Below are positions 22,122 to 56,780 of a stretch of DNA of 64,000 bases, one piece after another (the stretch's first letter is position 1; every line of letters begins with the position of its first letter). Source of the DNA: Olegusella massiliensis. Lineage in GTDB: Bacteria; Actinomycetota; Coriobacteriia; Coriobacteriales; Atopobiaceae. The DNA lies in the NCBI RefSeq assembly GCF_900078545.1, contig NZ_FLLS01000002.1, positions 248,001 through 312,000 of the forward strand, written 5' to 3'. The position numbers and the translations under genes were made by a program. The notes beneath the pieces were generated by a model. It had not been told where the DNA came from and ran no database searches. It worked only from the letters and a program-made list of their open reading frames with translations.

Positions 22122-22254
22122 TCGATAGCACACACAAACTCAATGATGGAAATTGCAAGCGGCTATATAGTTTCAGGCAAGCAAAGAGAGGAAATAGGAC
22201 TATAGCAATTTGACAATCGCTGACAAAGAGTTAGGTAGAGAGGTATAAAAGCTT

Positions 22255-22321
22255 TTGTCACTTTTCTGTCACTCCGTGTCACTTGGAGAAGAAAAAAGGT
22301 CAGAGCCAAAGCCCTGACCTT
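22255..22321 (+). repeat. 67-bp repeat, orphan copy of attR-flanking sequence
   Basis: This block matches 56661-56727, next to the prophage right end, with about six mismatches by eye. It holds three TGTCAC motifs followed by an AAGGTCAG/CTGACCTT hairpin. At 56.7 kb the block sits just inside attR; here no attachment core follows, so it is probably the arm-site region of a lost phage. Confidence 0.75.
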
Positions 22322-22342
22322 GTATTATGTCCACTATACGAT

Positions 22343-22375
22343 GAATACCCTATATAATGTAATTATAGAGTATTC
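22343..22375 (+). promoter_or_regulatory. Palindromic operator overlapping a -10 box
   Basis: A 33-bp imperfect palindrome with GAATAC at one end and GTATTC at the other has TATAAT (22353-22358) inside it. It lies 60 bp upstream of the leader ORF and ribbon-helix-helix-like gene, and would suit autoregulation. The -35 box is poor. Confidence 0.5.
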
Positions 22376-22435
22376 CCCATATATATAACCAACAAAAGGC
22401 AATAAGGCCTTTCAAGAAGCAGAAAGGAGAACGTC

Positions 22436-22501
22436 ATGAGCGTAAGTTTCAGAATCTGGCGGATTAGAATTACGTCCACCGTCAAGCTTAGATTCCTCTA
22501 A
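22436..22501 (+). CDS. 21-residue leader peptide ORF
   Basis: ATG at 22436 with AGAAAGGAG upstream; the peptide MSVSFRIWRIRITSTVKLRF plus a final L is short and basic. It is followed by an interrupted CACCGT/ACGGTG inverted repeat and an AGCCCC-TTCG-GGGCT hairpin before the next gene, an arrangement like a translational attenuator. Function unknown. Confidence 0.45.
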   Translation: MSVSFRIWRIRITSTVKLRFL

Positions 22502-22514
22502 ACGGTGACACCAA

Positions 22515-22530
22515 ACTAGCCCCTTCGGGG
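22515..22530 (+). promoter_or_regulatory. GC-rich UUCG hairpin between leader ORF and RHH-like gene
   Basis: AGCCCC and GGGGCT pair across a TTCG tetraloop. No U-tract follows, so it is more likely a structural element of the leader than a terminator. Confidence 0.5.
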
Positions 22531-22569
22531 CTGGAGAGGTCTCATGACTTTCTTAGACAGGAGTATATC

Positions 22570-22749
22570 ATGGCAACAGAAGCACAGCTTAGAGCTACAG
22601 ACAACTATCGGAAAAAGAGCGTGAAGACTTTTACAGTTAAGTTCTTCCCAGCAGATCATAATTTGTATGAGTACTTACAGACCCAGCCAAAGAAAGCTGA
22701 GTATTTGCGCAATCTTATCCGCGAGGATATGGAGCGCAAGAAAGATTAG
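22570..22749 (+). CDS. Small ribbon-helix-helix-like protein (copy 1)
   Basis: A 59-residue protein (MATEAQLRATDNYRKKSVKT...) with AGGAG before the ATG. The N-terminal third is basic, then a strand-like VKFFPADHNLYEYLQ and a helix. It is clearly paralogous to the gene at 46414-46608 (shared xYRKxxVKxxxxxFxPADxxLYEYLQT and an IR-D-L-I-R-type end). Size and layout suggest an Arc/MetJ-type DNA-binding repressor, but the fold was not verified. A TGTCCCACAAA hairpin follows the stop. Confidence 0.7.
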   Translation: MATEAQLRATDNYRKKSVKTFTVKFFPADHNLYEYLQTQPKKAEYLRNLIREDMERKKD

Positions 22750-22759
22750 ACAGCCACAC

Positions 22760-22787
22760 GTGTCCCACAAAAGTATTTGTGGGACAC
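22760..22787 (+). terminator. TGTCCCACAAA hairpin, copy 2
   Basis: Perfect 12-bp inverted repeat GTGTCCCACAAA / TTTGTGGGACAC eleven bases after the RHH-like gene stop. It is also the point where the neighbouring minus-strand scaffold gene loses homology. Confidence 0.65.
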
Positions 22788-22796
22788 AAAAGCTGT

Positions 22797-22955
22797 TTTC
22801 TGCCACTTAGCAAATTTACGCTCAATGATTTTGTCTACATCAGCATTGGTGTACTTAAGGTCGCTCTTAGGCTCTTGTTTAGACTCCTGCTTGATCTGCT
22901 CACCTTCTGGCGTACTATCAAGCTTCTGCTCATCCTGCTTGGTTTGCTCGTCCAT
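22797..22955 (-). pseudogene. Phage scaffold protein N-terminus (truncated)
   Basis: An ATG at 22955 with AAGGGA upstream starts a Glu/Lys/Gln-rich sequence that ends in KYTNADVDKIIERKFAKWQK, the typical beginning of DUF4355-like capsid scaffolding proteins. Phage similarity stops at the hairpin at 22787; the frame then runs 17 more codons through the repeat. The C-terminal two thirds of the scaffold are missing. Confidence 0.7.
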
Positions 22956-22967
22956 TGTGTATCCCTT

Positions 22968-23039
22968 CTAATCCAGCTGTTTAAGGTCAGCCGCTAACCT
23001 CTCCGTAGCTTTTAAAGACATCAACGCTTGGTCTAAGAA
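22968..23039 (-). pseudogene. Short C-terminal fragment upstream of scaffold start
   Basis: A coding-like tail (LDQALMSLKATERLAADLKQ) with a TAG 13 bp before the scaffold ATG at 22955. It has no ribosome binding site of its own and is likely a remnant. Confidence 0.35.
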
Positions 23040-23063
23040 AAAAGCCGCTCTCCCGAACGGCTT
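23037..23063 (-). terminator. Cassette terminator
   Basis: AAGCCG/CGGCTT stem followed on the minus strand by TTTTTTC. It overlaps the stop of the thioredoxin-like gene and resembles the hairpins at 23338 and 24124. Confidence 0.75.
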
Positions 23064-23319
23064 AGTCTTCAAACATGTCAAGAATCGCTTGTATTGCTTC
23101 CTCGCTGGGAAGCCCCCTGCAACGAAATATTTCTTGTTCTCCATCATCAACGGTAATCGTCGGAAGGTAATCAACGCTTCTGCTCTGTGCTGCGCAAGGA
23201 TGCCAATCAACATCAATGAGGTCATAAGGTATAGCCTCGTCATCCAGAAGCGGCACGAGTGTTTGTAGCGTACCCTTGCACGGGCTGCACCAACTAGCGT
23301 GCCAGATAGTGACTTTCAT
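23062..23319 (-). CDS. Small thioredoxin/glutaredoxin-like protein
   Basis: An 85-residue thioredoxin-fold protein with WCSPC (Cys11, Cys14) after the first strand, the cis-Pro segment DYLPTITVDD and no signal peptide. Length is at the short end of the thioredoxin family, as for phage NrdH/Trx-type proteins. It stands alone between two terminators within the remnant, so it is an independent phage-derived unit. Confidence 0.85.
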   Translation of the reverse strand: MKVTIWHASWCSPCKGTLQTLVPLLDDEAIPYDLIDVDWHPCAAQSRSVDYLPTITVDDGEQEIFRCRGLPSEEAIQAILDMFED

Positions 23320-23337
23320 ACGCCTTCTTTCGGCATG

Positions 23338-23363
23338 AAAAAAGCCACCCCGAAGAGTGGCTT
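23338..23363 (-). terminator. Cassette terminator
   Basis: AAGCCAC/GTGGCTT stem with TTTTTTC after it on the minus strand, 20 bp after the stop of the 95-residue gene. Confidence 0.8.
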
Positions 23364-23383
23364 ATTAACTTATAGTTTGACAA

Positions 23384-23671
23384 TTAAAAAGTCCCAATAA
23401 TCTTCTCATAACCCCTTGTTAATGAGCTAATCTTTTGGTGTTTCTCGTATCCAGCAGTTTCAAGATAGAGCTTAGCAAACTCGCCTAAAGGCGCACCAAA
23501 AAAAGTAGGTTTCTTATAGCTAGTCAGCTTTGCTATTGGATTCTTTAATTCTGGAGAGAATTCTTTTTGTCCTAATGAAAATACAACAGCGGTCAAAGCA
23601 TCACTCGGGTCACCTGAGCTAAGCAGCGCTAAAAGCTCCTGAAGGCTTTTTCTTTTTGTTGTGTTACCCAT
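23384..23671 (-). CDS. Hypothetical 95-residue phage-associated protein
   Basis: Starts at the ATG at 23671, which overlaps the stop of the upstream fragment (GATGGGTAA). The sequence (KRKSLQELLALLSSGDPSDA, later GAPLGEFAKLYLETAGYEKH) has no recognised domain. Position after a headless gene fragment and before a terminator makes it a candidate immunity protein of a lost effector; this is inference from layout only. Confidence 0.55.
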   Translation of the reverse strand: MGNTTKRKSLQELLALLSSGDPSDALTAVVFSLGQKEFSPELKNPIAKLTSYKKPTFFGAPLGEFAKLYLETAGYEKHQKISSLTRGYEKIIGTF

Positions 23672-23801
23672 CGCTTTCACCACCAGACAATCTTTTAATC
23701 TCTTCAGAAAGAAACTTCTGTAAATCTAAAATAAGTTTATCATTGCCTTTTCTTTTAGCAGGATTAATCTCGACTTCGTAAGCATAAATTTCACTCTGTA
23801 G
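23664..23801 (-). pseudogene. C-terminal fragment, possible toxin tail
   Basis: A 45-residue coding-like frame (EIYAYEVEINPAKRKGNDKL, then a Leu/Lys helix ending SGGESDG) without a start codon and preceded by stops. Its end overlaps the next gene's ATG, as expected for a translationally coupled gene pair whose first member has lost its 5' part. Confidence 0.45.
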
Positions 23802-23817
23802 CTATCTTCAATAACAC

Positions 23818-24012
23818 TTACTTGTCTTTGGCATAGCTGTGTGACGGGGTAGGCCAATGTTCAGTAGAGAGTTTATAAGCACGTTCGGACATGCCCATAA
23901 AGGGTTTCGATGGGTCAAGCACGGGGCCTCGGTCATCTGCGCCCCATTCGACATATCCAAAATCTAGTAATTGTTTCTGAGCCTTATCTACATCTCTGTC
24001 ACTTTGAACCAT
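23818..24012 (-). CDS. Hypothetical 64-residue protein, candidate immunity protein
   Basis: ATG at 24012 with GGGGGGTGAG upstream. The protein (MVQSDRDVDKAQKQLLDFGY onwards, with VEWGADDRGP and a hydrophilic end) is unknown. It overlaps the 3' end of another headless fragment. Confidence 0.55.
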   Translation of the reverse strand: MVQSDRDVDKAQKQLLDFGYVEWGADDRGPVLDPSKPFMGMSERAYKLSTEHWPTPSHSYAKDK

Positions 24013-24092
24013 CTCACCCCCCTATTCTCACCACGCAGCCACCTATAAGCCATTATTTCTACTTCATCAGACTCTGTTGTAAGATTTTTAGC
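23988..24092 (-). pseudogene. C-terminal gene fragment, possible toxin tail
   Basis: A 34-residue coding-like frame (AKNLTTESDEVEIMAYRWLR onwards) preceded by a stop and lacking a start. It overlaps the 64-residue gene by 25 bases. Confidence 0.45.
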
Positions 24093-24123
24093 CTACTGTA
24101 ATAATTCTACCCATCTTGATATG

Positions 24124-24149
24124 AAAAAAGCCACTCTTCGGAGTGGCTT
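24124..24149 (-). terminator. Cassette terminator
   Basis: AAGCCACTC/GAGTGGCTT stem with a TTCG-like loop and TTTTTTC after it on the minus strand, 25 bp beyond the 69-residue gene. Confidence 0.85.
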
Positions 24150-24173
24150 AAGCATAGTTACTTAATTACTAGC

Positions 24174-24383
24174 CTACGCTGTAAGACGTTTCCAGTTCTC
24201 ATAGTCCTCTGGCAACAAGTACTTATCCATCGGAGCTTTACCAATCATCAATTTTATATCTTCAACTGGCTTACGACCAGAAGCAGCCGAAGCATATAGC
24301 CTTACAAAGCGCATCTTTACACTGTCATAGTCAAGCCGCCCTGGGATGCGATACTTGTCCAATATATCCGAAATTGTCTCCAT
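24174..24383 (-). CDS. Hypothetical 69-residue protein, candidate immunity protein of MuF remnant
   Basis: ATG at 24383 with AGGAGG upstream, 23 bp after the MuF fragment stop, and closed by a terminator. The sequence (ISDILDKYRIPGRLDYDSVK and later PEDYENWKRLTA) has no family I recognise. Tight coupling to the variable C-terminus of a MuF protein is the usual place for an immunity gene in MuF polymorphic toxin loci. Confidence 0.6.
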   Translation of the reverse strand: METISDILDKYRIPGRLDYDSVKMRFVRLYASAASGRKPVEDIKLMIGKAPMDKYLLPEDYENWKRLTA

Positions 24384-24406
24384 GTCGCACCTCCTGAAAG
24401 TCGCAC

Positions 24407-25492
24407 TTACTTGACATAGTAATTATACCCATATCGTTGTGCATTTCTTATAAGCCACTCATGTTGTTTGCTCTTAAACGCCTTCTCGACATCTGTCGTA
24501 TCAGTGTTATACAGCGGGATTCCAAGTGGCTTACAGTTCTTCTCCCAATACTCAAAGGACATATCGTCCCATGTTTTATCGGAGAAAATCTTGTAATCAT
24601 TAAGAAAGTCGTTAGAGAGCTTTTTATTAGCTTTACTTGTTCTCTCAAGAACAAAACATCTCTTTTCGCCTTGAGTCTCAGTAGCTGAGTTTGATTTAAT
24701 CCCATAATCAACTAATACCGTAACATCTTCAACACTCAAGGTTCCCCCAACACGAGTTGTATGTGTGTGAGTCAATTCAAGATCACTCAAAGATGCATCT
24801 ATATTTTTCTCGCGCATCAGGCGAACAAGCTCTTCTTTTTCTGGAAGTTCAACGCCTCCTACATCTCCGATGCCCTCCCATATTGCCTTGCCATTAAAAT
24901 TAAATGCTGCTACTTCAGGCTTCCCGAAGCGCCGGGTATACCTACCAATCGACACTTTGTGTTCACCAGAAGATACTTTATGCCCAGAAATATTTCTTTT
25001 GGTCGTTTCCGCTCTATGTCTGTCAATCTGTTGCTTTTGCCATGCATCCCAATCAGAAACAGCAGGTGCAATCTGGCAGCGGCAGCGAGGATGCAAGGGT
25101 GGGAAGTTCTGCCCTACTACGGCATCATCAAAGCGATAAATCTCATCATAGCTATGCTTGCCAACATCTCCACAGACCTCACAGGTGCGCTCATCCCCTA
25201 CAGGGTTGATGTAGTACGAATCGAAGCCCTCGCGCTTAAGCCCTGCTGCCTGTGCAGCACGTGCAACATAGGTACCTTCTGTTTGCACAAGGCGCATGAT
25301 GTTTGCTTCTGAAACATCAACAAAGCGCTTGTGTAGCTCTGAGGTCATCTGCTCATAGCTCACGCCACGTGCTAAAGCCTTGGCCATATCCTGCTGTACA
25401 TAAGTTGCAAGCTTATCGGTATTGCCCCAGATGGTCTCTGAATAGCTCTTACCATCAGCCCAGTGAGTACCAACGAACTGCCTTATCGCGTC
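24407..25492 (-). pseudogene. MuF minor head protein, C-terminal part with variable domain
   Basis: An open frame of 361 residues that starts directly after the scaffold stop, with no start codon at the junction (first ATG at 25387). It covers the end of a SPP1 gp7/MuF domain (IMRLVQTEGTYVARAAQA; ERTCEVCGDVG; FPPLHPRCRC) and then about 200 residues of a different domain with LTHTHTTRVGGTLSVEDV. The N-terminal half of the MuF protein is missing, so the gene is truncated by rearrangement. The C-terminal domain occupies the effector position of MuF polymorphic toxins; its activity is not recognisable from sequence. Confidence 0.78.
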
Positions 25493-25927
25493 TTAATTGC
25501 CAAACATCTGCTGAGCGAGCTTCTTCTTTGCAACGTCCACATCGTCAGCATCTGCGTCAAACTTGCCAGCATGAGCAATCTTTGGAGCAGCAGGCCTATG
25601 TCACTTAGACATCTCCTTAGCAAATGTGCGCATTTCATCTTCACTTTCTCCCTGGATAAAATGAGCAGGGATGCCTGTTTCAGATGCAATCTTATTAAGA
25701 AGAGCGGTTCTCTCAGCTTGAACGCGAGCAGCGGCAAGCTCACTTTCTACTTTCCCTGCGCGCTCAAAAAGTTCAGTAAACTTCGTTTGATTCTCGTCAA
25801 AAGCCTTGGCCTTCTCAGCATTTTCCTTTGCTCGGTTTTCCCACTTGCGAGCAAGAGCTTTCCAATCAGTCCTAGCTTTTTGCGCTTCATTTTCTGAGTT
25901 TTCAAGTTCAAGCTCTTCGCCAGCCAT
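25493..25927 (-). pseudogene. Phage scaffold-like gene with premature TGA
   Basis: From an ATG at 25927 (GGAG upstream) the frame encodes a coiled-coil, Glu/Lys/Ala-rich scaffold protein (RTDWKALARKWENRAKENAE). A TGA after FAKEMSK interrupts it, then the same frame resumes (RPAAPKIAHAGKFDADADDV) to a TAA at 25493. In tailed phages the scaffold gene follows MuF; here it precedes a MuF fragment, so the order was scrambled by recombination. Confidence 0.72.
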
Positions 25928-25993
25928 ATTTGACTCCGTTTCTCCCTGTGCAGGGACTTGATGCCGATCCTCCCGTGCGGGATTTATCAGCAT

Positions 25994-26021
25994 GAAAAAG
26001 CCCCCACCATGCGGCGAGGGC
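25994..26021 (-). terminator. Terminator upstream of scaffold pseudogene
   Basis: GCCCTCGCC and GGTGGGGGC pair (one wobble, one mismatch) followed by TTTTTC on the minus strand. Confidence 0.65.
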
Positions 26022-26143
26022 AAAATTCCAAGATTGAGCAGTTTTACGACTTACCTAGGTCGAGGAATGAAAATAATCAATTGAAATGGGGTATATTATG
26101 CATAGCGGATGCGCTGTCACGCCATTGCGAGACGGCCTCCGCT

Positions 26144-26248
26144 TTATTTGTGCGGCGGTTCGGGAAGAACTCTCGTTAGCTTTCCATTATGATCAAGTAG
26201 ATACGCTTCGTTCTGACCATGCCTCCATATGCCAGTTCTGCCATACCA
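26144..26248 (-). pseudogene. Phage gene C-terminal fragment
   Basis: A 34-residue coding-like frame (TWYGRTGIWRHGQNEAYLLD, then NGKLTRVLPEPPHK) bounded upstream by a stop and without a start. It looks like the tail of a larger phage protein; the family was not identified. Confidence 0.4.
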
Positions 26249-26328
26249 CGTTTATGTTCTATTAGAATGCGGTATATTTAAAGTAGCGACGCAGCGACCC
26301 GGGCGAGAAGTCGGGGCACCGGGCGTCG

Positions 26329-26496
26329 CTAATGCTTTCTGTGGATTACTTCGAACGCATCAACTGTACCGCTCTTTACGAAGCCCTCACCAATTCTCAT
26401 GTATTCCGATTCGTGTTGAGGTGACAGGCTTACATCAACAAGAATAGATTTCGGAGAGCCTGGGTATTCAACAAATTGTCCTGGTGCAGACTTCAT
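26329..26496 (-). CDS. Hypothetical 55-residue protein
   Basis: ATG at 26496 with AAAGGT upstream; sequence MKSAPGQFVEYPGSPKSILV onwards has good coding character and no recognised domain. A GC-rich inverted repeat (AGCGACGCCCGG ... CCGGGTCGCT on the minus strand) follows the stop and may be a terminator. Confidence 0.55.
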   Translation of the reverse strand: MKSAPGQFVEYPGSPKSILVDVSLSPQHESEYMRIGEGFVKSGTVDAFEVIHRKH

Positions 26497-26562
26497 TCTT
26501 TTTTACCTTTGTACTTTGCTTTTTCGGTAGCCGTCAGGGTGTCCCATCACAATGGCGACTGA

Positions 26563-27129
26563 CTTACAAGCTTTGAAGAGCATGATGGGTTTATAGCACT
26601 GATTGATAATGACTTCTTTCGGACGATTGCCGTGCTTGGCTTGTCTCTGGGGCTTCGTAAGGATGAAATCTTTGGTCTTGATCGGGATAATATCGACTTT
26701 GAGTGCCGCCTAGTCCATGTACAGCGCACCTACGTCCGAGAGCACGATGGACACAAGCTCATGCCACCAAAAACAAAGATGAGTGACCGCTATATCCCTT
26801 TGCGCAAGAAAAGCACTGAATGGCTGCATGAGCTCTATATCAAGCGTGGGAAGCCTGCGAGAGTAGTCTGTGTCAATTACAAAGGAGATCGCGCAAACCC
26901 ACGAACAGCAACGGACAGATGGTTGCCATACCTATGCAAACATGACTTGCCCTATGTTACGATGCTCAACTTACGCCACAGCTTTGCCACATCTTGCCTT
27001 ATGACTGGTATGGAAATACGTAAGGTCTCACACTATCTTGGGCACACGACAATTAACACGACGGCTGCAAGATACATGCGCTACAAAGCTGAGGATGTGG
27101 TTGATGACTTTGATAAGTTCGTAGACTAG
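26563..27129 (+). pseudogene. Truncated tyrosine integrase
   Basis: An open frame of 188 residues, preceded by a TGA, covers only the catalytic half of a phage tyrosine recombinase: GLSLGLRKDE with the first catalytic Arg, a Lys in PPKTKMSDRYIPL, LRHSFAT with the second Arg, and YLGHTTINTTAARYM with the His and the nucleophile Tyr. The usual H-x-L-R-H box reads L-N-L-R-H, so one active-site His is replaced. Arm-binding and core-binding domains are missing. An inactive relic that once moved a phage at this site. Confidence 0.82.
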
Positions 27130-27275: not shown

Positions 27276-27320
27276 TGGTGGCGGGGAAGGGAATCGAACC
27301 CCTGACACGGGGATTTTCAG
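27276..27320 (-). repeat. attL: duplicated 3' part of tRNA-Phe (45 bp)
   Basis: Identical over 45 bp to 56736-56780, which is the 3' part of the tRNA-Phe gene from the encoded CCA to the anticodon loop. Identity ends abruptly at 27321/56781. This is the left boundary of the intact prophage. Confidence 0.93.
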
Positions 27321-28862: not shown

Positions 28863-28874
28863 ATTGCGTTATTT

Positions 28875-28934
28875 GTCAGAGCTTGTCAGGGTTTGTCAGA
28901 GCTTGTCAGAGCTTGTCAGAGCTTGTCAGAGCTA
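28875..28934. repeat. Six tandem 10-bp repeats at endolysin 3' end
   Basis: GTCAGAGCTT is repeated six times (second copy GTCAGGGTTT, last ending in A). The endolysin stop codon falls inside the array, so copy changes upstream of it would alter the last residues. Confidence 0.85.
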
Positions 28935-29797
28935 TTCAACCTGCGCTGCAAAGCACGAGCGCTTTGTGGGCCAAAGTAGCCATCAGCATCAACACCCAGC
29001 CATCTTTGCACGGCACGAGATGTACCTTTGCCCCAGATGCCATCTGCAAAGACTCCTGTCTTACGCTGCAATGCTTTAACGCAAAGCGAACCCTTTGCGC
29101 TATATGACCACTCCCAGCCCACCGTAGCGGAAGGGACATACCGCTTGTTTGGCGCGTACTGTGATGAGATAACGCCGTCTGCGGGTGTACCGAGATAGCG
29201 CTGCAAGGCCTTGATAGTAGCAGGGCCGAAGTAACCATCCACATCGAGCTTTGCAGCCTTGGCTTTGGGCGCTGGTTTGGTCTGAGGCTTAGCTGCGGGC
29301 TTTCCACCTGTAATGACCTTATGTAAAGCCTGCCACTTAGCACCAGTAGGATCTTCGCCATTTGGCGCATAGGGATAAGGGCACGCCTTGCGCGATGCAT
29401 CGTAGTGGCGCACGACGCGCGATGCAGGAACCCCGAACTTGCCCATGAGCTGCTGTACCAGTGCTGTGAGGTAGCCAATTTCAGTCTGTGTGTAAGGCCC
29501 GCCGTTATTGCAGACCTCAACACCGATTGAATTTTGATTGGTGATTCCGTAGCGCCCTCGACCGTCTCCCACGTGCCACGTGGCAAACTTGGACGGGTCG
29601 GCGTACTCCCAGATACCCCCATCGTCAATAAAATAGTGGGCAGAGGCCGCACGATATCCTCTTGAGAAGTAGATGCAATTAGCCTTTGCCGAGCCTGCTT
29701 TGCTCGTGCCGCTGCCCGTGTAATGCACAACGATGTAGCGCACAGAAGTTGTGCGCGGGACGATATTGAGCGTCCCGTGATGCTTATGAATGAACAT
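28916..29797 (-). CDS. Endolysin: N-acetylmuramoyl-L-alanine amidase with peptidoglycan-binding domains
   Basis: A 293-residue lysin. Residues about 15-150 are an Amidase_2/PGRP-type zinc amidase: YIVVHYTGSG carries the first His, RHYDASRKACPYPY the second His and the Cys ligand. After a Lys/Pro/Ala linker come peptidoglycan-binding repeats (DVDGYFGPATIKALQRYLG and DADGYFGPQSARALQRRL, with a weaker copy between). No signal peptide, so release depends on the holin. The ATG at 29797 has GGGGAG upstream. Last gene of the late operon. Confidence 0.93.
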   Translation of the reverse strand: MFIHKHHGTLNIVPRTTSVRYIVVHYTGSGTSKAGSAKANCIYFSRGYRAASAHYFIDDGGIWEYADPSKFATWHVGDGRGRYGITNQNSIGVEVCNNGGPYTQTEIGYLTALVQQLMGKFGVPASRVVRHYDASRKACPYPYAPNGEDPTGAKWQALHKVITGGKPAAKPQTKPAPKAKAAKLDVDGYFGPATIKALQRYLGTPADGVISSQYAPNKRYVPSATVGWEWSYSAKGSLCVKALQRKTGVFADGIWGKGTSRAVQRWLGVDADGYFGPQSARALQRRLNSSDKL

Positions 29798-44260: not shown

Positions 44261-45514
44261 TCACCCAAATATGCTGTGATATGTCTGAGCACCTGCATCA
44301 AGCGCTCTTGCTATGCGCATTGTCGCAACCATGTAACGCAGCGCATCACATGCATGGTCATCGACCTTAAGCGGGCGTTCGACTCCTGTTGGCGTTTCAT
44401 CCCAGACATAGCCGCCCAGCTCTTGCACAAGGTTTGTACAAGCACCCTTATCAATGCGCACAAGCCCCGCCTGCAAACATGCAGCGGTCTCGCGAATGCC
44501 GTCCATCACGTCATTGCGGGCATGGCGGATGCGAAAGCGCCCACGACGGCGCAACTCAGCCATGAACGAGGTCGCGCTAGGGTCAACGATGATTTCTACC
44601 TCGGGGGTCGGGACGTCTGCCACAAGGGCTAACATCGCGTCAGCATAATCAGGGTCAGTCATCTGGTGGCCTTGTGTGCGCCCCGAGTAGTAAAACTCTT
44701 TGATTGCGTGCCACGCTGTGCCGTCATATGCCCAAAGCAGCGCTGCAAAGGCGTTTTGTGTACCGTAATCAACAGAGACCGCCCAGCGCTTAATTTCATC
44801 TACATCAAGGCTTACATCGTCTTCTAGCGCACTCTCATATGCTGGATACACCAAGCCCTCTGCTTTAACCCACTCACCTTTGATATAGCGGTTGTAAAAC
44901 ACGCCCGAATACATACGCTCGTAGCGTTCAATAGTCTGCTGAGAAAGACTAGGGTTGTCGGTCATCAGAAAATGCAAGTGCAGCGCATTGCGATTATGTG
45001 CCTCGTCTATCCATTCCCGTTTAAACCAATGCGCAGGGCTATCAGGGTTGCAGTTAAACCACAATTTCGCGCCCTCAACAGAACAACGCGCAAGCGCTTG
45101 GTTAACAAAGCTTTGTGGCATGAGTGCCACCTCATCCATGAGAACACCAGCAAGCGTGCGTCCCTGGATGAGCATGTAACTTGCTTCATCTTTGCCACCG
45201 AAGACCTCAAACCAGTTCACGGTGTTGCCACGTCTAACCTCTAACACCTTGTCTTGGCCATGCCAGCGCAAGACGTAACCTTTGCGTGTGGGATAGGTCA
45301 TAACGGTGTAAGGCACGATGATATTTTTCTTAGCGCTATCTATTGTCTTGCCACAAATGCCGAAGCGTTGACCTGCGAACTCTCTCATTGCCCAATCAAC
45401 AAAAGCAACAGTCATAAGCGATGTTTTGCCGCTGCGCACCGCACCATCGCACACCAGCGCATCGTAGCGTGTGTAGGGAAACGCAAGAATTGATTCCTGC
45501 TTGTCACTGAGCAC
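44261..45514 (-). CDS. terL: Terminase large subunit
   Basis: A 417-residue PBSX/SPP1-type large terminase. Walker A-like GAVRSGKTSL near residue 25, Walker B LAGVLMDEVAL, coupling motif FNCNPDSPAHWFK, and nuclease-domain acidic residues beginning at VSVDYGTQNAF. It pumps DNA into the prohead and cuts concatemers. Confidence 0.95.
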   Translation of the reverse strand: MLSDKQESILAFPYTRYDALVCDGAVRSGKTSLMTVAFVDWAMREFAGQRFGICGKTIDSAKKNIIVPYTVMTYPTRKGYVLRWHGQDKVLEVRRGNTVNWFEVFGGKDEASYMLIQGRTLAGVLMDEVALMPQSFVNQALARCSVEGAKLWFNCNPDSPAHWFKREWIDEAHNRNALHLHFLMTDNPSLSQQTIERYERMYSGVFYNRYIKGEWVKAEGLVYPAYESALEDDVSLDVDEIKRWAVSVDYGTQNAFAALLWAYDGTAWHAIKEFYYSGRTQGHQMTDPDYADAMLALVADVPTPEVEIIVDPSATSFMAELRRRGRFRIRHARNDVMDGIRETAACLQAGLVRIDKGACTNLVQELGGYVWDETPTGVERPLKVDDHACDALRYMVATMRIARALDAGAQTYHSIFG

Positions 45515-45965
45515 GGCGATCTAGCTCCTTTGCTCGCTCAATTAAGCTTGCGCTGAGCGCGTCATCGTTAATCTGCTCTGCTTGAGCGGGAATTTCAGGC
45601 GGATTGTCGCGATAGCCGGCACGGTTTTTGAGATAGAAGATTTGCGCCGACACAGAAGGCGGCAATTTGCGGCGCTTGATTTGCTTGCTACCATCGGGGT
45701 TTGTGGTCTCAATTTCCTCGTAAACATCGCCTGTAGCGCTGCGAAAAAGATAGTTTTCAATGACTTGCACAGATAGCGCTCGGCCCTGAGTGACCGCATC
45801 GGCGATAGCTGCGTATTTATCCATCCACACACCTAGCGTCTGGCGCGAGATGCTCATGTTGTGGGCTAATTCTTGATAAGTGCATCCATGAGCTGACCAG
45901 TTAATGATTCGCTCAAGGTTTGCAGGCTCTAGCCATAGCTGATATTTTGCGCGACGTTTCTTCAT
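45504..45965 (-). CDS. terS: Terminase small subunit
   Basis: A 153-residue protein with an N-terminal helix-turn-helix (TYQELAHNMSISRQTLGVWM) and a helical oligomerisation region. It overlaps the large subunit gene by eleven bases. It recognises the packaging site, probably nearby. Confidence 0.88.
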   Translation of the reverse strand: MKKRRAKYQLWLEPANLERIINWSAHGCTYQELAHNMSISRQTLGVWMDKYAAIADAVTQGRALSVQVIENYLFRSATGDVYEEIETTNPDGSKQIKRRKLPPSVSAQIFYLKNRAGYRDNPPEIPAQAEQINDDALSASLIERAKELDRRAQ

Positions 45966-46079: not shown

Positions 46080-46108
46080 TTGCAATTATATACCGCTAGT
46101 CTTATAAT
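46080..46108 (+). promoter_or_regulatory. Near-consensus plus-strand promoter
   Basis: TTGCAA (46080-46085), a 17-bp spacer and a perfect TATAAT (46103-46108) face the small membrane-peptide genes, against the direction of the late operon. Confidence 0.75.
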
Positions 46109-46139
46109 ATTCTCATCAAGTCAAGGGGAGGTGATTGCA

Positions 46140-46265
46140 GTGAATGACTTGAAAGGGTTCCTAATCGCTCTAGTTGCAACCACGCTAGGGAACATCATCT
46201 CGGTAGCGATTCAGGAACGCATTAAACCCCGCCAGAAGGCCGGCAAGCATTCCAAGCGGGGCTAG
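46140..46265 (+). CDS. Small membrane peptide 1 (41 residues)
   Basis: GTG start at 46140 with GGGGAGG upstream. The peptide begins MNDLKGFLIALVATTLGN, has one membrane helix and a strongly basic tail (KPRQKAGKHSKRG). It shares the M-x-DLKxFxIxL pattern with the next peptide. Size and design resemble type I toxin or small holin-like peptides; no antitoxin RNA was identified with certainty. Confidence 0.6.
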   Translation: MNDLKGFLIALVATTLGNIISVAIQERIKPRQKAGKHSKRG

Positions 46266-46271
46266 TGCTAA

Positions 46272-46291
46272 GGGGAGCCAAAAGGCTCCCC
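46272..46291 (+). promoter_or_regulatory. Hairpin between the two membrane-peptide genes
   Basis: Perfect GGGGAGCC / GGCTCCCC stem with an AAAA loop, six bases after the first peptide stop. No U-tract follows directly, so it may be an RNA stability element. Confidence 0.6.
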
Positions 46292-46324
46292 GACCACTAC
46301 TATTTTAGTCTGATTGGGGGCAAC

Positions 46325-46414
46325 ATGGAAGATTTGAAACTCTTCTTCATCTATCTGATGGCTTCTCTTATTTCTGGTCTGATTCTGGGGGCTATCAGGG
46401 ATAGGAGGCGCTAA
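46325..46414 (+). CDS. Small membrane peptide 2 (29 residues)
   Basis: MEDLKLFFIYLMASLISGLI then a short basic end (RDRRR). Preceded by GGGGG at the right distance. A single membrane helix, related by eye to the 41-residue peptide upstream. Its TAA overlaps the ATG of the RHH-like gene (TAATG), so the two are translationally coupled. Confidence 0.58.
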   Translation: MEDLKLFFIYLMASLISGLILGAIRDRRR

Positions 46415-46608
46415 TGACAGTATCAGAAGCACAAAAACGCGCATCGAGCAATTATCGAAAGCGTAACGTAAAACAAGTAGTCGTATCATTTTATCCTGCT
46501 GATAAAGACCTCTACGAATATCTACAGACCAAAAAGAGTAAACAGCGATATATCCGCGATCTCATCAGGCAGGATATGAACGAATACGACAAGGAGCAGC
46601 CCTGTTAG
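46414..46608 (+). CDS. Small ribbon-helix-helix-like protein (copy 2)
   Basis: A 64-residue protein (SEAQKRASSNYRKRNVKQVV onwards) with AGGAGG before its ATG and a terminator just after. Paralogue of the 22570-22749 gene. Likely DNA-binding regulator of this plus-strand unit; coupling to the membrane peptide suggests an antitoxin/repressor-like role, which is inference. Confidence 0.7.
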   Translation: MTVSEAQKRASSNYRKRNVKQVVVSFYPADKDLYEYLQTKKSKQRYIRDLIRQDMNEYDKEQPC

Positions 46609-46625
46609 GGATTGCTCCTTTTCTT
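46591..46625 (+). terminator. Terminator of membrane-peptide/RHH unit
   Basis: AAGGAGCA pairs with TGCTCCTT and is followed by TTCTTTCT. The stem overlaps the RHH-like stop region; minus-strand genes end just beyond it. Confidence 0.78.
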
Positions 46626-47006
46626 TCTGCTCATCCTTTGTCTAAGCATTGTGTCGCGCTTTGTCTCCAACGCGCGGCACTCTTTCTCGTCAAGATAACA
46701 GCCTTTGCAAAGTTCTAGCCGTTTTGCAGACGCACTCTCTACCCACACGGGGCGGACATGGCATCTACAGCACAGCGTATTTCTTCGATTCCAGCGCCCT
46801 TGGCGTTCTCGCATGCGCTGAATCGCTTTTGGCGTATGCCTTGGAAGGAAACCTTTGTGAAGCTCTACAGCGGTCATATCAGGGTGGCCAAGAAGTACTG
46901 CGATTTCTCTCTTCGTCCACTTTTCCCACGTATGTGAACGTTTTGTGTGATTTCGTACTTGGGGCAAATGCCCCAAGTTTTGCGGCTTTTTTACTCCCTG
47001 ACTCAC
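46605..47006 (-). CDS. Phage regulator with Myb/HTH-like and zinc-binding regions
   Basis: A 133-residue basic protein with a GTG start (GGAGGAAAAGG upstream). Residues about 25-65 (WTKREIAVLLGHPDMTAVEL, then HTPKAIQRMRERQGRW) resemble a SANT/Myb-like helix set, followed by a Cys-x2-Cys ... Cys-x2-Cys zinc-binding pair (CCRCHVRP, LCKGC). Being the last early gene before the packaging module, it may be a late-transcription activator. Confidence 0.6.
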   Translation of the reverse strand: MSQGVKKPQNLGHLPQVRNHTKRSHTWEKWTKREIAVLLGHPDMTAVELHKGFLPRHTPKAIQRMRERQGRWNRRNTLCCRCHVRPVWVESASAKRLELCKGCYLDEKECRALETKRDTMLRQRMSRKKRSNP

Positions 47007-47041: not shown

Positions 47042-47806
47042 CTAGCGATTGGCTACAAGCCTTCTGTCGGCTCCTGTCATGTGGATGACCTCACACGAGC
47101 CCACAAGGCGCGAAACTATCGCATCAGCGCCTTCTGTGTCTCCCCTACTACTGAGAGCTTTTGCCATGTCGCTCGGACTCTCCTGTGAGGTAACGATGGT
47201 AGGAAGCCCATAGGCAGAGCGGGCATTGATGACCTCAAACAGCTGTGTGATGGCAAGCTCGGTCGGAAGCGCTCGACCCAAATCATCGAGTACAAGAAGC
47301 GGAATCAGCGCATAATGCCCCGCAACTGCGCTTTCACGCCCTTCGCCGATTGCTGCTCTCAGCTCACGGAGCATGCCTGGGGCTGTCGCAAATGCGGCTT
47401 TTCCTGCACCAGATGAGATCCAAGAGGCAAGCACAGAGCAGGCTTTGAATGTCTTGCCAACGCCTGCATTCCCCCAGAGCCAAAGCCCGCGCCCAGCTTG
47501 CAAAGCATCGAGATAGCGGCTCACAAGCGGGACGTTGCAGTAGGCGCTTGGCACGCCAAGACGAGCCATACGCACATCAAACGGCACTTCTACAGGCATC
47601 AACTGGGCTGCTTCGGCATCGGTGATTTCCTGCATGCTTACGCTTTTGCCCTGGTGAGTGGCGAGATACGCGTCAATGCCTGCCTCATCGACGGGGAAAA
47701 ACCTGCTTCCTATCAAAACGCTGCTGCCATCTGGTGAGAGATTCCATTGGAGTTTTTGAGCGCTTGAGCTGGCAATTCTCGCAAGTGCCGCTGCGATTGT
47801 GCTCAT
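47042..47806 (-). CDS. DnaC/IstB-like ATP-binding helicase loader
   Basis: A 254-residue AAA+ protein with Walker A GNAGVGKTFKA, Walker B LLVLDDLGRA, a sensor TIVTSQES and a C-terminal arginine-containing SRLVGSCEVI. N-terminal region resembles DnaC-type loaders. It should load the host DnaB helicase at the phage origin, working with the upstream replication protein. Confidence 0.9.
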   Translation of the reverse strand: MSTIAAALARIASSSAQKLQWNLSPDGSSVLIGSRFFPVDEAGIDAYLATHQGKSVSMQEITDAEAAQLMPVEVPFDVRMARLGVPSAYCNVPLVSRYLDALQAGRGLWLWGNAGVGKTFKACSVLASWISSGAGKAAFATAPGMLRELRAAIGEGRESAVAGHYALIPLLVLDDLGRALPTELAITQLFEVINARSAYGLPTIVTSQESPSDMAKALSSRGDTEGADAIVSRLVGSCEVIHMTGADRRLVANR

Positions 47807-48495
47807 GGTGCCACCTCCCCCGAATAGGCTGCGTATTTGTCGCCTAGACTGGATGCTGTGTCACGCGCCTTCACCTGTGGTTCTCCTCGGTTTCTAGCGC
47901 GAGAATTCCAGCCTGAGCAGGCAATTTTCCAGTCAGAAAGCGCCTGCCCATTGGCCTTTTTCCAGCCCTGGCTGGCGTAGTAGGAAACGAAGGTTTCGGG
48001 GTCAACGTGGGTGAAGTTGTGCTCTGCGACGTAGGCAGCAACCTCTTCGACGGTTGGCTTGTGATTTTTTGAACAGGATTTTTCTTTCTTGGGTATTCCG
48101 TTAGGAATACCTTCTTTCTTATTACTATTACCCTTACTCTTAGTTCCCTCAATTTTCGGGGTTCTGTTCATTGCAGAATCGCTATTCTGTTCATTCGATT
48201 TCTGCGGTTCTGTTCCCTCAATTTTCGGGGTTCTGTTCATTTGGTTTTTACGGTTCTGTTCATTTGTCGTATCTGCCTTGGTCTTTCTTACCTCAGCACT
48301 CTTCAAACCTGCGACACGCTTATTACGGCTCTCGTCCAAAGAAGGACGGATAGCGGTAATTACCGCCAGAGCCGCCCCTTCTGCTTCAGGCTCAATTCCA
48401 TAGGCTAGATACTCAAGAATCGCGGTGTAGTACTTCTCACGGTCTTCCCGTGTCATCGCTTGCCCCGCGTCAATGTATGAATCAAAGATATTCAT
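47803..48495 (-). CDS. Phage replication initiator-like protein with DUF6291-type N-terminus
   Basis: A 230-residue protein starting at ATG 48495. The first 90 residues (IFDSYIDAGQAMTREDREKY) match a helical domain common in phage replication proteins; then comes a polar Asn/Lys/Thr-rich linker with MNRTPKIEGT twice; the C-terminal part (ETFVSYYASQGWKKANGQAL, SDWKIACSGW) is the usual end of such DnaD-like initiators. Overlaps the helicase loader by four bases. Confidence 0.7.
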   Translation of the reverse strand: MNIFDSYIDAGQAMTREDREKYYTAILEYLAYGIEPEAEGAALAVITAIRPSLDESRNKRVAGLKSAEVRKTKADTTNEQNRKNQMNRTPKIEGTEPQKSNEQNSDSAMNRTPKIEGTKSKGNSNKKEGIPNGIPKKEKSCSKNHKPTVEEVAAYVAEHNFTHVDPETFVSYYASQGWKKANGQALSDWKIACSGWNSRARNRGEPQVKARDTASSLGDKYAAYSGEVAP

Positions 48496-48505
48496 GAGTC
48501 CCCGC

Positions 48506-48706
48506 CTAAAGATTTTCCAAGGGCTTTGCTCCGCCATAAGGAATTCGGTCTTTGCATGTAATAAATGTCGGCAACCATGGGTGTTTACCTGTGGGCTCTT
48601 CGCCCGTGAATCCATAGTGCAGAAGAGCAAGTAAGAACTCGCTCCCCTGCTTCTTGGTCATCATGGCAGCCGCTTCATACATATCATCTTGGATTATGAC
48701 TGGCAT
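48506..48706 (-). CDS. Small protein related to the DUF6291-type domain
   Basis: A 66-residue protein (MPVIIQDDMYEAAAMMTKKQ, then FLLALLHYGFTGEEP) with AGAGGA upstream. It resembles the N-terminal helical domain of the next gene and may be a truncated duplicate of it. Confidence 0.6.
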   Translation of the reverse strand: MPVIIQDDMYEAAAMMTKKQGSEFLLALLHYGFTGEEPTGKHPWLPTFITCKDRIPYGGAKPLENL

Positions 48707-56650: not shown

Positions 56651-56660
56651 TGGGAATGTT

Positions 56661-56727
56661 TTGTCACTTTTTTGTCACTCCGTGTCACTTTGGGAAGAAA
56701 AAAGGTCAGAACCGAAGCTCTGACCTT
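56661..56727 (+). repeat. 67-bp repeat beside attR with arm-type sites
   Basis: Partner of 22255-22321. Three TGTCAC motifs (56662-56690) are followed by an AAGGTCAG/CTGACCTT hairpin that can end transcription of the cargo gene. Confidence 0.75.
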
Positions 56728-56735
56728 ATGTTTTC

Positions 56736-56780
56736 TGGTGGCGGGGAAGGGAATCGAACCCCTGACACGGGGATTTTCAG
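56736..56780 (-). repeat. attR core within tRNA-Phe (45 bp)
   Basis: Identical to attL at 27276-27320; covers the tRNA 3' part from CCA to the anticodon loop. Confidence 0.93.

Follow-up and report, generated by a model that had tools for sequence, protein, structure and literature searches.

The window, i.e. the 64,000-nucleotide stretch of the Olegusella massiliensis genome (1.8 Mb) that was analysed, contains a small unit of three genes (46080–46625, plus strand) encoding two single-helix peptides and an RHH-like protein. From its sequence features, the unit is likely to be a type I-like toxin-antitoxin module of prophages, in which an antisense RNA would serve as the main antitoxin and the RHH-like protein as an autorepressor. 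Comparison among related loci supports the conserved gene order, an operator, an antisense promoter and a covarying antisense terminator.

Transcription of the unit would start at promoter P1 (TTGCAA-17-TATAAT, 46080–46108, plus strand), which has 10/12 matches. The first gene (46140–46265, plus strand) has a GTG start preceded by the Shine-Dalgarno sequence GGAGGTGA and encodes peptide 1 (41 aa), a putative toxin. The second (46325–46414, plus strand), with an ATG start and a weak Shine-Dalgarno sequence, encodes peptide 2 (29 aa), a putative second toxin, and is coupled by TAATG to the third gene (46414–46608, plus strand), which has an ATG start preceded by AGGAGG and encodes the RHH-like protein (64 aa), the probable autorepressor. 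A hairpin at the RHH stop codon (46591–46625, plus strand, z -3.4) would terminate the unit, and a GC hairpin, ggggagcc-aaaa-ggctcccc (46272–46291, both strands), lies between the two peptides, where it would form the 5' hairpin of the antisense RNA and also be present in the mRNA. A near-consensus promoter, a small third gene coupled by TAATG, a terminator and an orientation against the surrounding genes had been described in an earlier reading made from the letters of this DNA (hereafter the sequence-only reading), and all of them were found. P1 is the sole sigma-70-like site in the 44.5–48.5 kb region; since shuffled sequences yield 3.5 such sites on average, its support rests on comparison rather than on the scan. 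Upstream of peptide 1 in the 24 three-gene loci described below, the promoter-like sequence scored 9.54, compared with 7.86 (sd 0.21) in shuffles.

An exact 45-bp repeat at 27276–27320 and 56736–56780, the second copy of which is within a tRNA-Phe gene, delimits a prophage of about 29.5 kb in which the unit is located. The unit lies between the terminase genes (44261–45965, minus strand; phrog_2, E 8e-49, and phrog_309, E 1.8e-31), which it adjoins, and the gene for a DnaC-like helicase loader (47042–47806, minus strand; phrog_50, E 3e-30), opposite in direction to both. An identical RHH-like protein (100%) and the same two peptides are encoded in the IMG/VR contig IMGVR_UViG_2788500038_000001. 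In 19 other three-gene loci, for each of which one or two large neighbours were scanned for phage context, a terminase large subunit was found within about 2.1 kb in 9 (L024, L148, L150, L153, L156, L157, L164, L161 and L025), a primase in 1 and an integrase in 1; the scanned neighbours in 8 had no match up to E 1e-5. In most of the terminase-linked loci the unit is co-directional with the terminase, the two being opposed in L150 and the window, and this varying direction suggests an independent cassette with a preferred place.

Several other features of the region are worth noting. An ORF of 133 aa with Cys pairs (46605–47006, minus strand) is arranged tail-to-tail with the RHH stop codon; it had no Pfam or PADLOC match, and its sole phrog match was at E 0.42. 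The ORF at 47803–48630 contains 23-nt-spaced repeats (48143–48264) encoding a repeated NRTPKIEGT-like stretch. A 74-nt stretch at 22253–22326 is 89% identical to 56659–56732, beside attR, and 26632–27129 resembles, by eye, an integrase fragment; the region 22253–27129 is likely to be a remnant of another prophage. Outside the prophage att sites there is a second RHH-like gene (22570–22749, 53% identical), with a short cationic peptide ORF (22436–22501) and a hairpin (22518–22532) upstream.

With a profile of the RHH-like protein, relatives were found in 33/140 genomes from the family and 81/395 from the order. Outside the order, 150 genomes from the family to which a Ruminococcus MAG belongs yielded a match in 3, including the MAG chosen as centre, and isolated distant relatives are found in Clostridia and other groups. 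Phage records yielded just one or two weak protein matches and plasmid records none, and a DNA search of both returned no match to the unit. A search for the same gene order elsewhere, which the sequence-only reading had proposed, showed that the genes do co-occur: the order peptide 1, hairpin, peptide 2 and RHH gene was found in 24 of 112 distinct RHH loci (26 if the near-identical copies L025 and L127, both left out of the 24, are included). These loci, chosen by eye on peptides and spacing and not on antisense features, represent three families of the order as well as IMG/VR contigs, and include, by identical sequence, Atopobium sp. oral taxon 199 (L004 = L048) and Olsenella phocaeensis (L020 = L042). 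The distance from the end of peptide 1 to the RHH start is 130–194 nt, and that from the end of peptide 2 is at most 14 nt in either direction. In the first 63 loci for which 300 nt upstream were available, an automatic rule detected both peptides at 11/63 RHH genes versus 0/335 other genes; the rule for peptide 2 alone gave 19/63 versus 5/335. Control genes were ORFs of at least 100 aa with a Shine-Dalgarno-like site, taken from the fetched loci and the window; they were composition-matched only in the AT-matched antisense-promoter test, and shuffles served as the composition-matched control for the operator.

Other RHH loci were found with peptide 2 alone, with a different, short cationic peptide or without any recognised peptide, suggesting that this toxin is not an obligatory partner of the RHH protein. 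A second class (L012, L018, L077, L079, L080, L094, L130 and L131) carries cationic peptides of 21–30 aa with alternating hydrophobic and basic residues before the RHH gene; the operator pattern described below precedes the RHH loci L079, L080, L130 and L131 of this class, and L077 (minus strand) probably encodes a peptide 1 whose start is unusual. Arrays of approximately 10-bp repeats were seen 3' of the RHH gene in L006, L007, L081, L088, L111, L118 and L122. Repeats with a period of 8–12 or 18–22 follow the RHH gene in 12/24 three-gene loci and occur at 109/703 control genes, and a similar array (TTGTCAGAGC) is located at 28873–28942 of the window, beside a lysin-like gene.

Hydrophobic single-helix peptides are present in all 24 three-gene loci. 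The start of peptide 1 is mostly acidic and is followed by one hydrophobic helix and a basic Lys/Arg tail, with the motif G-K-H or P-K-H in most loci (GKH in the window), and peptide 2 is shorter, with one hydrophobic helix and a basic end. In the nearest unit by peptide identity, L107, the two peptides share 45% and 48% identity with the window peptides. BLASTP found no similarity between peptide 1 and peptide 2; profile comparison related them with a probability of 88.8%, and peptides of the same locus were more alike than swapped ones (28.3 versus 22.1 in 23 loci, 0/2000 permutations), the window pair scoring 52 (0/5000 shuffles). This greater likeness within loci supports the paralogy of the two peptides, as the sequence-only reading had supposed. 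The start of peptide 2 in L121 is doubtful, and this locus was excluded from the peptide 2 analysis, the same-locus pair test and the AT-matched promoter test. The window peptides fall below every curated toxin-family cut-off. Window peptide 2 matched the Fst family NF033608 below threshold (E 0.021) and was the only one of 23 peptide 2 sequences with a match up to E 0.5, none being found among 24 peptide 1 sequences. The Clostridioides difficile type I toxin family NF047374 matched 2/24 peptide 1 sequences weakly (best E 0.018), that of the window not included, and PADLOC found nothing among ten proteins scanned.

The RHH-like protein belongs to phrog_4223 (function unknown; E 7.5e-8), the sole family covering it, and matched no Pfam or NCBIfam family at cut-off. 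Its structure model (pLDDT 91) has helices at residues 5–18, 28–38 and 43–61; segment 19–27 of the monomer model is non-helical, and no strand was assigned in it. Foldseek gave no PDB match for either model and a best E of 0.79 in its viral library, and the best match in a PDB profile search was 2kke (E 0.023).

We found that the -10 box of P1 is overlapped by an inverted repeat, TATR-N10-TATR, which the sequence-only reading had missed and which suggests that the RHH-like protein is probably an autorepressor of its own operon. The probable operator of the window, assigned on the enrichment of this pattern, is TATA-N10-TATA (46089–46106, plus strand) with a weak core (2/5 pairs symmetric); other examples are TATAGGGTCTACCCTATA (L123), TATAGCACACGTGCTATA (L107) and TATAGTACTAGTACTATA (L121). 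The pattern is present in 19/24 three-gene loci and missing in 5, and was found in 18/86 other RHH loci (including L025 and L127) and at 20/499 control genes; with a symmetric core, the corresponding numbers are 12/24, 12/86 and 7/499. When the 110 nt preceding peptide 1 were shuffled, 1.02 of 24 loci on average showed the pattern (maximum 5) and 0.14 its symmetric-core form (maximum 2). The core varies yet stays symmetric (2.67 of 5 pairs versus 1.34, sd 0.21, with the core letters shuffled), which fits joint change of protein and site. The mean best dyad score was 7.58 versus 5.36 (sd 0.19) in shuffles, several single loci having their best dyad elsewhere or a non-significant one. The third gene had previously been taken for an antitoxin; the operator repeat points to an autorepressor instead, and the antisense RNA is the likelier antitoxin.

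On the minus strand between the peptides, a predicted promoter lies over the start of peptide 2 and is followed by two hairpins, the second of which would be a terminator inside the 3' end of peptide 1. The -35 element is over the peptide 2 start and the -10 element upstream of its Shine-Dalgarno sequence, as in TTGCAA-17-TATGAT (L006), TTGCGA-17-TAGAAT (L081) and a locus with the -10 element TATAAT (L134). A promoter score of at least 8 was obtained at 15/24 peptide 2 starts versus 41/894 control starts and, with AT matching, at 15/23 versus 1.64 expected (maximum 8 in 2000 draws); on the plus strand, the same position gave 1/23. The second hairpin, whose loop is the reverse complement of the G-K-H codons, is mostly followed by a U-rich tract within peptide 1. 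The antisense terminator rule was passed at the 3' end of peptide 1 in 15/24 loci (in one, L004, resting partly on G-U pairs) versus 19/900 control gene ends, and on the sense strand of these segments in 0/24. It failed in 9/24 loci, the window included, and in L026, L093 and L121 a terminator-like hairpin lies beyond the tested stretch. The window copy is weak: the -10 box is TAAAAT (46302–46307, minus strand), the -35 region over the peptide 2 start has 3/6 matches, and the terminator hairpin CCCCGC...GCGGGG (46227–46261, minus strand) is followed by the U-tract TTTAAT (46226–46221), too short for the rule.

The terminator stem occurs in several versions, such as AAGACCTCT/AGAGGTCTT (L117), AGGACTTCT/AGAAGTCCT (L083) and GGTTCC/GGAACC (L124). 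For a helix picked after inspection of the same sequences, 11 of the 24 loci had 14 doubly changed cells versus 3.8 in shuffles (0/500), and 11 loci without the window had 16 versus 5.1 (0/500); the number of pair types was not raised (11 versus 11.4, and 9 versus 10.1 without the window). Alignments A5 and A9 comprise 11 well-aligning loci each of the 24, and A4 all 24, which align poorly. RNAalifold recovered the second hairpin on A5, and only a poor part of the first. The proportion of differing four-fold sites was only slightly lower in the 3' part of peptide 1 (182/290) than in its 5' part (437/623), too small a difference for clear support.

When model R3, a covariance model built without the window, was run on both strands of the 64 kb, one match up to E 1 was obtained (46304–46213, minus strand, E 1.8e-6), the likely transcript running from about 46295 to about 46220; it lies where the sequence-only reading had suggested looking for an antisense RNA (46265–46330). 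R3 found 6 of the 12 three-gene loci outside the model (L006, L005, L107, L093, L026 and L121), missed the other 6 up to E 0.5 (L020, L028, L004, L007, L111 and L118), and also matched L110 and L077. In 140 genomes, model R1 had six matches with E <1e-3, each of them located at an RHH locus (three had been part of the model), and 17 further matches up to E 0.1, about the chance level. An antisense-RNA-like segment was also seen in L110 (1960–2200, E 5.5e-5), in which an intact peptide 1 was not recognised, and two tandem weak matches were seen in L103 (1760–2060, E 0.2 and 0.26). Rfam detected only tRNA in the window at gathering scores and, at a loose E-value, six sub-threshold matches in 4/6 loci, none at the antisense RNA. 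Upstream of other RHH loci, minus-strand terminators numbered 16 versus 7 on the plus strand at score 22, too mixed a result to be used. By a simple search, the loop of the GC hairpin on the mRNA strand is UUCG in 3/24 loci and GNRA in 4/24, suggesting that this hairpin may act in the mRNA too. Its role as a plus-strand terminator was set aside, the U-run being absent after it in the loci read and sense terminators being found in 0/24. As sequence features, the predicted antisense RNA has its own promoter and terminator and overlaps the putative toxin mRNA, a criterion for type I systems.

A different division of labour, in which the RHH-like protein itself is the antitoxin, binding the peptides as well as the operator in a type II-like manner and leaving only fine control to the antisense RNA, seems unlikely. 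Autoregulating RHH antitoxins are common, the end of peptide 2 is close to the RHH start in all 24 loci, and some loci have peptide 2 and the RHH gene without a recognised peptide 1; among these, the antisense RNA was not detected up to E 0.5 in L008, L009, L014, L015, L043 and L044. However, the protein has only about 60 aa and is modelled without a long extra arm, and the antisense RNA is independently supported by promoter, terminator, covariation and covariance model. We give still less credence to a superinfection-exclusion or lysis-timing unit, the peptides of which would modify the membrane and thereby keep phages out or set the time of lysis, with the RHH-like protein and antisense RNA only keeping them low. 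Small membrane peptides in prophages, near terminase in about half of the scanned loci, would suit such a role, but it is typically in type I toxin loci of Gram-positive bacteria that an antisense RNA covers the 3' end of a small hydrophobic gene, and the window peptides match no exclusion or holin family. The sequence-only reading had offered a toxin/antitoxin or an exclusion unit; the former fits, also in view of the conserved order, and the latter gained no specific support.

It is very improbable that the peptides are not made as proteins and that the conserved segment is a structured RNA plus a leader for the RHH gene only. Strong RNA structure and the low silent divergence of peptide 1 between L020 and L028 (dN/dS 2.23, with more replacement than silent change) would agree with this. 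On the other side, Shine-Dalgarno-like sites precede most starts, the hydrophobic helix is kept while the sequence drifts, and both peptides were detected by rule at RHH genes (11/63) and at no other gene (0/335). In addition, dN/dS of peptide 1 was 0.31–0.49 in 6/7 pairs and silent change exceeded replacement in peptide 2 in 7/7 pairs, several pairs being saturated.

For the type I-like module, we infer the following scheme of transcription, binding, pairing, degradation, toxicity and purpose. P1 would produce one mRNA for two membrane-inserting peptides and the RHH-like protein, which would bind TATR-N10-TATR over the -10 box and shut down its own operon. A second promoter, without operator, would fire leftwards from the peptide 2 start. 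The resulting antisense RNA of about 75–100 nt would base-pair with the terminal part of peptide 1 and the adjoining 3' flank, and the duplex may then be degraded before much toxin is made, as by RNase III for yonT/SR6. Upon loss of the prophage or disturbance of its transcription, repressor and antisense RNA would run out and the peptides would damage the membrane; the purpose may be prophage maintenance or phage conflict.

We are somewhat inclined to regard these units as a doubly locked two-toxin type I family of Coriobacteriales phages, with the antisense terminator written in the coding sequence of the basic toxin tail, an operon-encoded RHH autorepressor acting on a co-evolving palindrome, and the same repressor re-used with other small peptides; we know of no other type I system from Actinomycetota. 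The Lys codons being the complement of the antisense U-tract, this suggests a partial explanation for Lys-rich toxin tails. If the proposal is correct, it would add a layout with the transcriptional repressor encoded in the type I locus itself, and a search recipe free of toxin similarity, namely an antisense intrinsic terminator inside a small hydrophobic gene with an antisense promoter just downstream. Actinomycetota would also join the phyla with type I systems, which a 2025 paper restricts to Proteobacteria, Firmicutes and Tenericutes for the time before its own cyanobacterial case (PMC12390103).

The matches listed in the open-access literature (subscription papers and preprints being outside the scope) included neither a description of this family nor one of a type I locus that encodes an RHH repressor of its own, in line with the sequence-only reading, which did not recognise a described system. 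Fst-type toxins (NCBIfam NF033608) are short single-helix peptides with a charged C-terminus, like the window peptides, but peptide 2 falls short of the family cut-off (14.7 versus 26 bits). In the Mycobacterium tuberculosis relBE2-asRelE2 locus, an actinobacterial toxin is under control of a protein and an antisense RNA, as proposed here; the toxin and antitoxin in the sections available are RelE and RelB, whereas the window unit encodes membrane peptides (PMC9325379). The prophage type I systems of Clostridioides difficile, e.g. CD2907.1-RCd9, have toxins of 34–59 aa with a hydrophobic N-terminus and a Lys-rich C-terminus, as here, and an overlapping convergent antisense RNA like the predicted one (PMC6563280). 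In the portion of that text at hand they are described as single toxin-antitoxin pairs, and the word 'ribbon' is absent from the text, whereas the window unit has two peptides and an RHH-like protein (PMC6563280). The closest likeness in layout is to yonT/SR6/yoyJ, a two-toxin type I locus of the Bacillus subtilis prophage SPbeta, in which two small toxins are encoded consecutively in one operon and the antisense RNA SR6 promotes yonT mRNA decay with RNase III (PMC5848175). This locus is from a different phylum, and its description, as far as the accessible part goes, includes no RHH autorepressor, in contrast to the window unit with its RHH-like gene (PMC5848175). Moreover, SR6 is complementary to the yoyJ ribosome-binding site, whereas the RNA here is predicted to start upstream of that site, and other Bacillus species have a mutated yoyJ, whereas peptide 2 has been retained here (PMC5848175).
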